64,000 nucleotides of DNA. Source: Herbidospora cretacea. GTDB taxonomy: Bacteria > Actinomycetota > Actinomycetes > Streptosporangiales > Streptosporangiaceae. The stretch is from NCBI RefSeq assembly GCF_001570605.1, contig NZ_BBXG01000004.1:558001-622000 (forward strand), in the 5' to 3' direction. Of the stretch, positions 5,408-9,831 are shown in pieces. The position numbers and the translations under genes are program-made. The notes under the pieces were generated by a model. The model did not search any database. It saw only the letters and a list, made by a program, of their open reading frames with translations, and had not been told where the DNA came from. The stretch's first letter is position 1. Each line of letters starts with the position of its first letter.

Positions 5408-6211
5408 TCACTTGATGCCCGATCGGGCCATGCCTTCGACGAAGTGCCGCTGGAACAGCGCGAACACCACGAGCATCGGGATCATCGACAGCAGCGACAT
5501 GGCCATCAGCGAGCCGTAGTCCTGGCCGTACTGGTTCTTCAGGAACAGCAGGCCGACCTGGAGGGTGTAGCTCTCGGGGTCCTTCAGCACGATCAGCGGC
5601 CAGGCGAACTCGTTCCACCGCCACATGAACGTGAAGATCACCAGCACCGCGATCAGCGGACGGCACAGCGGCAGCACGACCGTGCGGAAGATGCGCCACT
5701 GGCTCGACCCGTCGCACTGCGCGGCCTCGATCAGCTCGTCGGGGATCGCCATCATGAACTGCCGGGCCATGAACAGCCCGAACGCCTCGGCCAGCCGGGG
5801 CACGATGACGCCCCAGTCGCTGCCGATCAGCCCGAAGTCCACCACCAGGTGGAACTGCGGCACCATCACAACCTGCACCGGCACCATCAGCGTGCTGATG
5901 ATGAGGATGAACAGCACGTTCCGGCCGGGGAAGCGCAGCTTCGCGAAGGCGTAACCGGCCATCAGGTTGATGACCACGGTCAGCACGACGGCGACGACCG
6001 CGATGAACACCGAGTTGACCGCCCACATGCCGTAGGGGAACTTGCTCAGCGGGTCGGTCAGGTTCTCCCACCGGATGCTCGTCGGCCACAGGTGCAGCCC
6101 GGGGCCCTTCATGTCGGCCGCCGAGGAGAGCGCGGTGACGACCATCCAGTAGACCGGGAACAGCATCGCGACCGCCCCGGTGATCGCGAACGCCAGGCGA
6201 TAGCGCGTCAT
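5408..6211 (-). CDS. Carbohydrate ABC transporter permease, MalG type
   Basis: 267 aa with six predicted membrane segments, starting at AFAITGAVAMLFPVYWMVVT. The EAA loop that contacts the ATPase is EAAQCDGSSQWRIFRTVVLPL. The end AMARSGIK-like (GMARSGIK) is typical of MalG/UgpE proteins (CUT1 sugar importers). The start overlaps the MalF-type gene by an ATGA. No cognate ATPase is encoded in the locus; CUT1 systems of actinomycetes often share a distant MsiK-type ATPase. Confidence 0.93.
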   Translation of the reverse strand: MTRYRLAFAITGAVAMLFPVYWMVVTALSSAADMKGPGLHLWPTSIRWENLTDPLSKFPYGMWAVNSVFIAVVAVVLTVVINLMAGYAFAKLRFPGRNVLFILIISTLMVPVQVVMVPQFHLVVDFGLIGSDWGVIVPRLAEAFGLFMARQFMMAIPDELIEAAQCDGSSQWRIFRTVVLPLCRPLIAVLVIFTFMWRWNEFAWPLIVLKDPESYTLQVGLLFLKNQYGQDYGSLMAMSLLSMIPMLVVFALFQRHFVEGMARSGIK

Positions 6212-7092
6212 GCGACGTCCCTCCGCTTGTTCACACGCCACTGGACGATCGTCATGACCAGGACGATGAGATAGAGCACGACGCCGATGGCCGAGGCGTA
6301 ACCCTGCTGCCGCTGCTCGAACCCGGCGGAGTAGGCGTAGGTGACCAGCATCGTGGTCGAGTTGCCGGGGCCGCCGCCGGTCATGACGTACACGATGTCG
6401 AAGACCTGGAAGCTGTTGATGATCCCGATCACGATCAGGAAGAACGTGGTCGGGCCGAGCTGCGGGACGGTGATGCGGCGCAGCGTCGCCCAGCGGGAGG
6501 CGCCGTCGCAGCGGGCCGCCTCGAACACCTCGCGCGGGATGCCCTGGAGGGCGGCGAGGTAGACGACCATGTTGAAGCCGATGCCGATCCACAGGCTGAT
6601 GGCCACCAGCGACAGCAGCGCCGGCACGCCTTCGGACTGCCACGGCACCGGGCCGAGCCCGACGACGTCGAGAATGCGGTTGACCAGGCCGATGTCCTCG
6701 TTGAACAGCCACGCGCCGATGAGCGCGCTGCTGACGCCGGAGATGACGGCGGGCAGGTAGAAGATCGCCCGGATCAGCCCCCGGGCGGGCATGCGCTTGT
6801 TGAGCAGCAGCGCCGCAGCCAGGCCCGCGACCAGGCACAGCGGCACCGAGATCGCGGTGTAGAGGGCGGTGTTCCACAACGCCGTCCAGAAGATCTTGTC
6901 GCTCAGGATCTCCTGGTAGTTCTGCAGCCCCACCCATTTGGCGATGCCGAAACCGCGGGTCTGCTGGAGGCTGATCCAGAAGACCTGGATCAGCGGCCAG
7001 AACATGAAGACCGCGAAGACGGCCACCGCCGGTGCGGCGAACGCCAGGCCGGTCAGCGCCTCGCGCGCCCGCCGCGTCCGGACCGTTGCCAT
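6208..7092 (-). CDS. Carbohydrate ABC transporter permease, MalF type
   Basis: 294 aa. It has an N-terminal cytoplasmic stretch, then about six membrane segments. The EAA loop is FEAARCDGASRWATLRRITVPQLG and YVMTGGGPGNSTT is a CUT1 hallmark. The gene starts exactly where the tnpB element ends: the terminal element bases supply GGGAG 6 nt before the ATG, while an AGGAGG that probably served this gene originally now lies beyond the element next to the binding-protein stop codon (8491-8496). Expression may therefore be altered. Confidence 0.93.
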   Translation of the reverse strand: MATVRTRRAREALTGLAFAAPAVAVFAVFMFWPLIQVFWISLQQTRGFGIAKWVGLQNYQEILSDKIFWTALWNTALYTAISVPLCLVAGLAAALLLNKRMPARGLIRAIFYLPAVISGVSSALIGAWLFNEDIGLVNRILDVVGLGPVPWQSEGVPALLSLVAISLWIGIGFNMVVYLAALQGIPREVFEAARCDGASRWATLRRITVPQLGPTTFFLIVIGIINSFQVFDIVYVMTGGGPGNSTTMLVTYAYSAGFEQRQQGYASAIGVVLYLIVLVMTIVQWRVNKRRDVA

Positions 7093-8486
7093 CAGTTTCT
7101 CCCGACGGGACCGTCGTCTTCAGGCGACGGGGAAATCGGGAGCGGGAGGGCTGTGACGGCCCGAGCGTGCCCTGACCAACCGGGTCTGCGCATCGCGGAT
7201 GTCCTTCCGAGGTTTACCGTCGAATGCCGGTATCGTGGTCGTGTCATCACGGAGTGTGGGGGGTGGGTGTGCGCCGGTCGTTCCGGTTCCTGCTGCGTCC
7301 CACCGCACGCCAGGCCGCCGCGCTCGCCGCGTGCCTGGACGACCACCGCACGCTGTACAACGCCGCTCTTGAGCACCGCCGCATCGCCTACGCCAAAGCG
7401 GGCGTGACGATCCGGTACGGCGAGCAATCGGCCGACCTGAAGCACATCCGCGCCGCCGACCCCGGCCAGGCCCGCTGGTCCTTCTCCTCCCAGCAGGCCA
7501 CCCTGCGGCGTCTGGAGCGGGCGTTCCGCGCCTTCTTCGACCGGGTGCGCCAGGGCCGCACCCCCGGCTTCCCCCGGTTCAAGGGACGCGGCCGGTTCGA
7601 CACGGTCGAATGGCCCAAGGACGGCGACGGCTGCCGATGGGACTCGCAGCCTGAGCACCCCACCGCCGCCTTCGTGAAGCTTCAGGGGATCGGGCACGTG
7701 CGCGTCCATCAGCATCGACGCGTTCTCGGCACCGTCAAGACGATCAGTGTCACGCGGGAGGGGTCCCGCTGGTATCTCGTGCTTTCGTGTGATGAGGTGC
7801 CCGGCCGGGCGTTGCCCGCGACGGGTGCGGCTGTCGGGATCGACATGGGCGTGGCGTCGCTGCTGACCACCAGCGTGGCTGAGCACCTGGTCAACCCGCG
7901 CCACCTGGCCGCCTCCGCCGACCGGCTGGCCGCCGCTCAGCGGGACCTGGCCCGCAAGAGGCGCGGCAGCGCGCGGCGTCGCAAAGCCGTCGCCCGCGTG
8001 GCCGCCTTGCACGCCAGGGTGCGGCGGCAACGCCTCGACGGCGCGCACAAGGCCGCACTCGCCCTGATTCGCGATTACGACGTGATAGTGCACGAGGACC
8101 TGAAGGTCGCGAACATGACCCGGTCGGCGTCCGGCACGGTTGAGCGACCCGGACGCCACGTCGCCCAGAAGTCCGGGCTCAACCGGTCGATTCTCGACGC
8201 GGGCTGGGGGGTGTTCCTGACGATCCTTTCGTACAAGGCTGAGAGTGCCGGTCGAGAGGTGATCGCAGTCGATCCCCGCGGCACCTCCCGCACCTGCTCG
8301 CGGTGCGGGCACTGCGCGGCGGACAACCGCGTCACCCAGGCCGGGTTCCGGTGTACGGCCTGCGGGCATGCCGCGCACGCCGACGTCAACGCGGCCGAGA
8401 ACATTCTCAGGGCAGGGCTTGCCCTTCGCCGGGCTGCGGAAGCGGCTTAGCGAGAAGCCGCTCCCTTCAGGGGGCGGAGGAGTCAC
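7093..8486 (+). mobile_element. IS200/IS605-superfamily element carrying only tnpB (IS1341-like)
   Basis: The ~1.4 kb insert interrupts a sugar ABC operon, antisense to it. Both ends carry an 8-bp hairpin with the same TTCA loop: left 7111-7130 (CCGTCGTC-TTCA-GGCGACGG) and right 8458-8477 (CCGCTCCC-TTCA-GGGGGCGG, one G-T pair). Terminal stem-loops rather than inverted repeats are typical of this superfamily. The left hairpin is nested in a second pairing, CTCCCGA/TCGGGAG (7099-7105 with 7136-7142). A further palindrome AGCGGCTT/AAGCCGCT (8441-8462) spans the tnpB stop. No Y1 transposase tnpA is present, so movement would need help in trans. Exact ends are estimated. Confidence 0.8.
7269..8450 (+). 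CDS. tnpB: TnpB RNA-guided nuclease (IS605 OrfB family)
   Basis: 393 aa from GTG 7269, which gives the usual N-terminus VRRSFRFLLRPTARQ; in-frame starts at 7224 and 7263 are possible. The RuvC-like catalytic triad is complete: Asp192 in GIDMGV, Glu276 in HEDLKVANM and Asp372 in HADVNAAENI. The zinc ribbon is CSRCGHC and CTACGHA. TnpB proteins use an omega RNA from the element's right end to cut target DNA, which helps retain the element. No frameshift or stop interrupts the gene, so it may be active. It is encoded against the direction of the surrounding operon. Confidence 0.93.
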   Translation: MRRSFRFLLRPTARQAAALAACLDDHRTLYNAALEHRRIAYAKAGVTIRYGEQSADLKHIRAADPGQARWSFSSQQATLRRLERAFRAFFDRVRQGRTPGFPRFKGRGRFDTVEWPKDGDGCRWDSQPEHPTAAFVKLQGIGHVRVHQHRRVLGTVKTISVTREGSRWYLVLSCDEVPGRALPATGAAVGIDMGVASLLTTSVAEHLVNPRHLAASADRLAAAQRDLARKRRGSARRRKAVARVAALHARVRRQRLDGAHKAALALIRDYDVIVHEDLKVANMTRSASGTVERPGRHVAQKSGLNRSILDAGWGVFLTILSYKAESAGREVIAVDPRGTSRTCSRCGHCAADNRVTQAGFRCTACGHAAHADVNAAENILRAGLALRRAAEAA

Positions 8487-8496
8487 CGGGCCTCCT

Positions 8497-9831
8497 CTAG
8501 GCGGACAGGGCCTTCTCGATCGCGGTGGTGATCGCGCCGACGGTGTCGTCGGCGGACTGGCCGCCGGTGAACCAGCCCTCCAGGTTCTGCACCAGCGCGT
8601 CGTTCACGCCGGAGAAGCCGGGCAGGGTGACGAACTGGACCAGGTCGGCGGGCATGGTGGTGGCCTGCTGCTGGAAGACCGGCATCAGGTCGGGCGAGAC
8701 GGCGTAGTTCAGCTTGGCGTCGGCCAGGTCCTTGCGGGCCGGGAGCACCGTCGTCTGCTCGCAGAACAGCTGCATGTTGGCCGGTTCGGCGAGGAACTTC
8801 GCGAACGCGGCGGCGGCCTCGGGGGCCTTGCTCTGCGTGGTGACGGCGACCGCGTTGCCGCCCAGGTCGGAGGCGGCGCCGCCGGGGCCCTTGGGCAGGA
8901 AGGTCGCGCCGATCTCGATGCCCTTGGCGGTCTTGCTGATGTCGGGCAGCAGGAAGTCGCCGACGAACGCCATCGAGATCTTTCCGGAGCCGAACACCAG
9001 GTCGGGGCTGTTGGCCGTCTTGACCATCATGTTCTTCGGCATCAGGCCCTTGTCGTAGAACGACTTGGTGAACTCGAGGGTCTGGCGGGCCTGCGGCGAG
9101 TCGAACACGACGCTCTTGCCGTCGGGGCCCAGCGCCTTGCCGCCCGCCTGCCACAGCCAGTTGAACCAGCGGTAGGCGCCGTACTGCTGCCAGTTGACGC
9201 CGAAGGCGGCGGTCGCGCCGGTGCCGGCGGCGTTCAGCTTCTCGGCGACCTCCAGGAACTGCTCCCAGGTCCAGGCGGTGTCGAGGGTGGTGGGCACGTC
9301 GGTGATGCCGGCCTTGGCGAAGTGCGCCTTGTTGTAGAGGACCGCGCTCGTGTCGGTGTGGTGGGGGACGCCGTAGGGCTTGCCCTGGTACTGCACACCG
9401 GCCCAGAGGGCGTCGATGAACTGTCCCGAGTCCGCGCCGATCGTCGCCGACAGGTCGGCCAGCACGCCCTGCGAGCTGTAGATGCCGATGTCGTTGTAGG
9501 TGACGCGGAACAGGTCGGGACCCTGCCCCGACTGCAGCCGGGCGTCGAGGGTGGTGCGCATCTGCTCGTACGGAAGCTGCTCCACCTTCACCTTCACGCC
9601 CGCGTTGGCCTTCTCGAAGGCGCGGGCGACGGTGTTGAAGGCGGCCATCTCGGCGTCCGAACCCCAGACGGAGAACGTCAGGTCACCGGTGGCGGCGCCG
9701 GCGCTCGCGGCGTTGGCGGGCGCGCTGGGGGCGGTGCCGCCCCCGCCGCAGGCGGCGAGGGCGCTCGTCGCGGCGGCGCCCGCGGCCGTCATGCCGGCCG
9801 CGCGGAGGAACTGGCGGCGGTTGAAATTCAT
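8497..9831 (-). CDS. Sugar ABC transporter substrate-binding lipoprotein (family 1)
   Basis: 444 aa. The N-terminus MNFNRRQFLRAAGMTAAG carries a twin-arginine motif followed by a lipobox (LAAC, Cys about residue 28), so Tat export and lipid anchoring are predicted. The body has the bacterial extracellular solute-binding type-1 pattern (GDLTFSVWGSDAEM; GVPHHTDTSAVLYN; LPGFSGVNDALVQNLEGWF). First gene of the minus-strand operon, with GGGAGG 5 nt before the ATG. Its stop TAG is followed directly by AGGAGG and then the tnpB element. Confidence 0.93.
   Translation of the reverse strand: MNFNRRQFLRAAGMTAAGAAATSALAACGGGGTAPSAPANAASAGAATGDLTFSVWGSDAEMAAFNTVARAFEKANAGVKVKVEQLPYEQMRTTLDARLQSGQGPDLFRVTYNDIGIYSSQGVLADLSATIGADSGQFIDALWAGVQYQGKPYGVPHHTDTSAVLYNKAHFAKAGITDVPTTLDTAWTWEQFLEVAEKLNAAGTGATAAFGVNWQQYGAYRWFNWLWQAGGKALGPDGKSVVFDSPQARQTLEFTKSFYDKGLMPKNMMVKTANSPDLVFGSGKISMAFVGDFLLPDISKTAKGIEIGATFLPKGPGGAASDLGGNAVAVTTQSKAPEAAAAFAKFLAEPANMQLFCEQTTVLPARKDLADAKLNYAVSPDLMPVFQQQATTMPADLVQFVTLPGFSGVNDALVQNLEGWFTGGQSADDTVGAITTAIEKALSA

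Follow-up and report, generated by a model that had tools for sequence, protein, structure and literature searches.

A tnpB-only element between the Shine-Dalgarno sequence and the start codon of a Herbidospora permease gene, with possible translation across its antisense strand

Introduction

The coupling of translation between neighboring operon genes whose stop and start codons overlap is a general mechanism, and TldRs, which are nuclease-dead repressors, lie beside transporter genes. For the IS200/IS605-type element ISDra2, a guide that is taken from the flank of the element and a target motif, TTGAT, have been described (PMC8612924). A gene-drive role in plasmids has been assigned to TnpB (PMC11870625), and in Borrelia IS605-type stem-loops are located at the 3' ends of lipoprotein genes (PMC2775950). 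Further literature on the subject includes PMC7290912, PMC9956272 and PMC9208149. Among the matches listed, which cover titles and abstract openings and include few subscription papers, none describes insertion at start codons or pass-through translation of the antisense strand in the family described here, and this constitutes weak evidence of novelty.

Here, we report the analysis of a tnpB element in a 64,000-nucleotide stretch of the Herbidospora cretacea genome, hereafter the window. As in tnpB-only (IS1341-type) members of IS200/IS605 and in ISDra2, the protein matches the TnpB family and hairpins lie near both ends; as in IS200/IS605, insertion took place 3' of a short fixed motif and, judging from four empty congeneric sites, produced no target duplication.

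The element and its insertion site

A sugar-type ABC operon occupies the minus strand in the order binding protein, permease and a further ORF (5408-6211). The names malE and malF serve as labels only, the NCBIfam cut-offs for named transporters and permeases not being reached. The features of the locus are as follows.

8497-9831, minus strand: host solute-binding-protein gene, malE-like (PF01547, PF13416)
6208-7092, minus strand: host permease gene, malF-like (PF00528; dN/dS)
8491-8496, minus strand: displaced host Shine-Dalgarno (SD) sequence AGGAGG (identical AGGAGG-CCCG preceding the ATG in four empty congeners)
7093-8486, plus strand: tnpB-only element, 1,394 bp (empty orthologous sites in 4/5 congeners; family-wide ends)
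7088-7092, plus strand: target motif GCCAT, which ends in the permease start codon read in antisense (CAT, 7090-7092; CCAT conserved in the pooled insertions, preceding base mostly T or G)
7269-8450, plus strand: tnpB, RNA-guided nuclease gene (NF040570, PF07282, PF01385)
8451-8486, plus strand: right end, with a hairpin and the tip GGAGGAGTCAC (right-end model across the family; fold)
8487-8502, plus strand: presumed 16-nt guide, covering the displaced SD (length by analogy with ISDra2; PMC8612924)

The initial annotation had placed AGGAGG at 8491-8496 on the minus strand, next to the binding-protein stop codon (8497-8499), with the permease ATG at 7090-7092 and the tnpB element in between, all of which was confirmed. 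Of the limits it gave, 7093-8500, the right one overshoots the true end of the element, 8486, by 14 bp.

We searched for orthologs in 60 genomes, which include that of the window and six other congeneric ones. The permease is 98-99% identical at the protein level in five of the six congeners, the sixth (G006) giving only a 42% match. The element is absent from four of these five (G002, G003, G004 and G005), which read GCCAT-CGGGCCTCCT at a site where the window reads GCCAT-CAGTTTCTCC...GGAGGAGTCAC-CGGGCCTCCT, and AGGAGG-CCCG-ATG is identical in all four; the fifth, G001, has this element inserted at the identical base. The proposal that a tnpB-only element separates the permease SD from its ATG is thus upheld, since four of the five permease-bearing congeners are empty and read AGGAGG-CCCG-ATG; neither the same spacing in tnpB-less orthologs nor element ends at other positions, the two outcomes named as arguing against it, was found in the congeners. 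The exact ends are CCAT/CAGTTTCTCC...GGAGGAGTCAC/CGGGCC, where slashes mark the junctions, and because the base that follows GTCAC is variable across the family, the element is delimited as 7093-8486 and the motif as CCAT. We consider the insertion, its ends and its target motif nearly certain.

The protein scores 268 bits against NF040570, for a cut-off of 100, and lies above the cut-offs of PF07282 and PF01385. Its GTG start was picked by homology, an in-frame ATG being present at 7224. Rfam returned nothing above gathering score within the window. The Y1 transposase TnpA is absent from the window copy, hence the tnpB-only (IS1341-type) label, and the element, of Y1-transposase (IS200/IS605) origin, retains tnpB alone.

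Its position in a transporter operon, the kind of neighborhood in which TldRs lie, raised the possibility of a domesticated TnpB-like, TldR-like repressor regulating that operon. The 393-amino-acid protein retains the acidic residues D192, E276 and D372, which we take to be the expected RuvC positions and which are common to a relative on contig C8; in addition, the site is empty in 4/5 congeners and relatives of the element adjoin many unrelated genes. We therefore rejected a nuclease-dead TldR, and regard regulation of the operon by such a repressor as very improbable.

By analogy with PMC8612924, the right end (8451-8486) is expected to form the 3' part of a guide RNA scaffold, an architecture of right end plus flank that fits what is seen here, and the guide would come from the right flank as in ISDra2. 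The first 12 nt of this presumed guide recur unchanged at the empty site in G003 and G005, and the first 10 in G002 and G004, a likeness to homing, gene-drive TnpB. The locus differs from homing TnpB in that similarity between the carriers is not locally raised around the insertion, and nuclease activity here is a prediction.

The single Y1_Tnp match in the genome belongs to a related tnpA+tnpB element on contig C8 (L039, G000:C8:350000-354200), with the Y1 transposase at 2046-2468 on the minus strand. Its TnpA reads MPDQVHL, and 13 of the 16 motif-bearing family members read MPDHVHL; the first histidine of the HUH motif may thus be lost in this sole match, so that the family may be immobile in this genome. 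This C8 paralogue, which precedes the start of a cupin-like gene, was discarded as a clean empty-site case, its right flank being unlike the upstream sequence of the orthologues.

Insertions at start codons across the family

Using the TnpB protein as query, we scanned for related loci and kept the best 80 of 221; end models and left-end searches complemented this set. On 82 loci, the first left-end model was found in 65/82, the right-end model in 81/82 and both in 64/82. Two left-end searches of 341 family genomes, scoring at most two matches per genome, gave matches in 89 and 55 of them, and 139 more loci were then added. The 221 loci contain 145 elements, 144 with usable flanks, which amount to 110 distinct insertions once similar flanks are merged (left ends of the CTCC type in 85, of the CGCG type in 25). 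Later batches brought 76 elements, nine of them new, giving a pooled set of 119, in which CCAT precedes 104 insertions. The base before CCAT is T in 56% of start and 51% of non-start insertions, and G in 30% and 28%, respectively. The motif is accordingly (T/G)CCAT, mostly TCCAT or GCCAT, and differs from the TTGAT of ISDra2.

As CCAT includes an antisense ATG, the left tip repeatedly touches a start codon, with tnpB antisense to the host gene. Starts were labeled by our own codon model and gene caller rather than taken from public annotation; because the two labels differ for some insertions, both are reported, and the size of the excess depends on the gene caller used. According to the codon model, 57/110 insertions lie exactly at a gene start (46/85 CTCC-type, 11/25 CGCG-type), versus 134/2383 CCAT and 43/454 TCCAT sites in the same flanks. 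The gene caller places 39 insertions at starts, 44 in non-coding and 27 in coding sequence, versus 48, 294 and 1459 control CCAT sites in 364 kb (the window plus 15 other 20-kb stretches), that is, 39/110 against 48/1801 at starts; with an SD bonus, it gives 45, 43 and 22. Two host genes were followed into relatives devoid of the element, and there the aligned protein starts at this same codon in 13/13 (8 ATG, 5 GTG; 13 of 19 relatives listed) and 11/11 cases (all ATG; 11 of 19 listed). With about half or fewer of the 110 insertions exactly at start codons, the family departs from its IS200/IS605 relatives.

Such an excess could result from the composition of the motif together with the loss of insertions inside genes, with no preference for starts as such. 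The antisense ATG in CCAT makes this conceivable, starts accounting for 48/342 of the control CCAT sites outside genes and for 9/39 of those in the window. However, outside genes 39/83 insertions are at starts versus 48/342 control sites (odds ratio 5.4, p=6e-10), and after matching on the base before CCAT, 38/75 are observed at starts versus 14.1 expected. We consider this explanation rather unlikely, and the excess of related insertions at start sites highly probable. It is possibly due to ribosomes reading through the reverse strand of the element. The presence of TnpA was examined as a cause of the preference and dismissed, 9/16 elements with the TnpA motif being at starts versus 48/94 without it.

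The left-end hairpin and the GGGAG motif

7099-7142, plus strand: left-end hairpin, lower stem CTCCCGA (7099-7105) / TCGGGAG (7136-7142) (fold; stem covariation)
7099-7103, minus strand: GGGAG, arm of the left-end stem, 6 nt 5' of the permease ATG (sequence; predicted paired)

The initial annotation had noted that the outer bases of the element place GGGAG 6 nt before the permease ATG. The motif and its spacing are indeed present (GGGAG-AAACTG-ATG on the minus strand, with the spacer AAACTG); its role as a stand-alone replacement ribosome-binding site is doubtful, as it is the arm of a hairpin with a predicted unpaired probability of 0.01, and left ends devoid of an SD motif also occur at starts. 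Folds show subterminal hairpins at both ends, with shuffle z-scores that are modest on their own (-1.2 and -1.7); the left-end fold of the window is no more stable than most shuffles (z -1.1), and its stem pairs covary across the family, the CGCG subgroup having GC-type arms. In G001, the left-end stem is disrupted and folds worse than 199/200 shuffles, so that its SD may be freer.

If the left tip acted as a self-sufficient ribosome-binding site, with transcription crossing the element and the antisense frame being incidental, one could point to the well-spaced GGGAG of the window, the GGAG and disrupted stem of G001, and the SD-like motif in 71/110 left ends. This reading, which we hold to be unlikely, is at odds with the predicted pairing of GGGAG in the mRNA of the window and with its accessibility in the family, since CTCC-type insertions with an SD motif have a median unpaired probability of 0.13 at starts (40 insertions) versus 0.09 elsewhere (31; Mann-Whitney p=0.82). 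Moreover, 17/39 insertions without a left-end SD are at starts versus 40/71 with the motif (p=0.23), and the difference in antisense stops described below is not predicted by it. With accessibility equal at starts and elsewhere and SD-less left ends also at starts, we set aside GGGAG as an evolved ribosome-binding site; the motif is real, but from the folding predictions it appears to be incidental to the hairpin.

The antisense reading frame

7092-8486, minus strand: antisense frame of 464 codons, from GTG (8484-8486, right tip) to TGA (7092-7094) (ORF list; complete also in G001)

On the opposite strand the right tip, GTCAC, becomes GTGAC, and the GTG takes the former spacing of the ATG from AGGAGG-CCCG. 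At the other end, the TGA, made of the TG of the left tip and the A of the ATG, overlaps the permease ATG by one base (UGAUG). The product has no Pfam match at E 0.1. In this region, the antisense strand is free of stops in 12/13 ordinary genes tested, tnpB included; thus, an open tnpB antisense strand proves nothing by itself, and the comparison between classes of insertion carries the argument. The hypothesis was suggested by the window itself and was tested mostly on loci gathered beforehand, so the tests that follow are exploratory; their p-values are uncorrected.

A complete antisense frame is found in 41/119 elements, an uninterrupted frame that sets the family apart from its IS200/IS605 relatives. 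It is more frequent at starts (30/64) than elsewhere (11/55, p=0.0035), be they labeled by the gene caller (26/48 versus 15/71, p=0.0003) or by the codon model (28/60 versus 13/59, p=0.007). Among elements shorter than 1,620 bp, the frame is complete in 30/50 at starts versus 11/40 others (p=0.003), the tnpB part is free of antisense stops in 46/50 versus 24/40 (p=0.0006) and the left-end part in 35/50 versus 18/40 (p=0.02), with sense tnpB intact in 45/50 versus 35/40 (p=0.75). The length of the element is in frame in 34/50 versus 20/40, which is not significant and only suggestive (p=0.09), and completeness given a stop-free tnpB part does not differ significantly (30/46 versus 11/24, p=0.13). 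The difference persists when relatedness is considered: of 39 nearest-relative pairs of a start and another insertion, 16 favor starts, 2 oppose and 21 tie (p=0.0013), and permutation within similarity clusters gives p=0.0047, 0.0066 and 0.0008. Support is weaker in short elements preceded by CCAT (p=0.003, 0.011 and 0.024, depending on the start label) and when sites in called genes are excluded (p=0.007, 0.025 and 0.049). At the codon level, TTA, CTA and TCA number 4 in 45 start elements versus 10 in 32 others, other NNA codons numbering 890 and 619 (p=0.028; 13 of the 90 short elements, which have no readable tnpB frame, are excluded). The nine new elements, too few for power, have a complete frame in 1/3 starts versus 1/6 others. 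Start insertions that do not have a complete frame, which speak against translation across the element, comprise 20/50 short and all 14/14 long ones.

On the minus strand, the right tip at 8484-8496 of the window reads GTGACTCCTCC, with an SD-complementary sequence just inside the element; the displaced SD can pair with this CUCCUCC, which would count against translation from it, although the stem appears in the minimum-energy fold and is absent from the centroid.

Permease constraint and history of the insertion

Between the two carriers, permease dN/dS is 0.154, near the upper end of the other 14 pairs (0.016-0.171), and that of tnpB is 0.268. The permease being under purifying selection, it is probably still expressed, and the suggestion that the insertion may be near neutral appears to be supported by a gene that is intact and constrained in both genomes. 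Retention of the permease gene is consistent with pass-through translation, as it is with expression by some other route. One such route would be a promoter inside the left end; alternatively, the permease might be little expressed, the rest being coincidence in both cases. Constraint on the permease speaks against silence and the difference in antisense stops is not predicted, which leaves this pair of explanations quite improbable.

Between the carriers, tnpB and the permease have equal dS (0.097 and 0.095), the pattern expected of an insertion that predates their split. The permease with the lowest dS to that of G001 (0.045) is, however, the one of the empty G005, so loss or recombination is needed besides an old insertion. 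Recent homing between the two carriers was discarded, identity to G001 per kilobase not being raised near the insertion.

Proposed mechanism and comparison with known systems

The insertion has left AGGAGG and the permease ATG 1.4 kb apart. We propose that the GTG of the right tip serves in place of the lost ATG, its distance from the host SD being unchanged. Ribosomes recruited at this SD would translate the 464-codon antisense frame across the element and open the left-end hairpin, in which GGGAG is hidden, before terminating at the UGA that overlaps the permease AUG and reinitiating there. The whole chain, from insertion at a start motif and displacement of the SD to pass-through translation with coupling, has in our view close to, though short of, an even chance of being correct. 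Pass-through translation is tentatively the most likely route for permease expression and the one we prefer, a judgment drawn from sequence features that we make with some reserve. The earlier suggestion that the element uncouples the permease from the binding protein finds no support in these features, as a host SD, a GTG, an open antisense frame and UGAUG would be expected to couple them. As in operon coupling, there is a continuous upstream frame, an overlap of stop and start codons and an SD hidden in a hairpin that ribosomes could open; the difference lies in the upstream frame, which here comes from the reverse strand of a transposon and is devoid of Pfam matches at E 0.1. The locus also resembles the stem-loops of Borrelia in that IS605-type end structures adjoin host genes, here at the start codon rather than at the 3' ends of lipoprotein genes (PMC2775950).

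It is possible, if somewhat doubtful, that the family as a whole is transparent to translation, combining an antisense-start motif, a new start for the host SD, a selected open reverse strand and a return through UGAUG that leaves the gene unsilenced. If true, this would explain how such elements settle at low cost between an SD and a start codon, would provide an example of a transposon whose antisense reading frame is under selection, and would imply that the TnpB guides of this family often correspond to host ribosome-binding sites. Even without coupling, the concentration at start codons via a motif with an antisense ATG offers a verifiable criterion by which these elements and the adjoining genes can be annotated.

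Related elements

Herbidospora sakaeratensis and Herbidospora galbida (L090, L114) have another insertion in common, that of a relative which has diverged further; it is labeled as a start insertion, with a 465-codon ORF as the host gene. In Streptomycetaceae, the loci of TnpB relatives that are about 58-65% identical (L463-L492) have the tip GTCA after tnpB in 28/30 cases, and a CCAT/CAG left end was recognized by eye in 3/30. Several of them seem to be differently arranged upstream, perhaps with a divergent tnpA.
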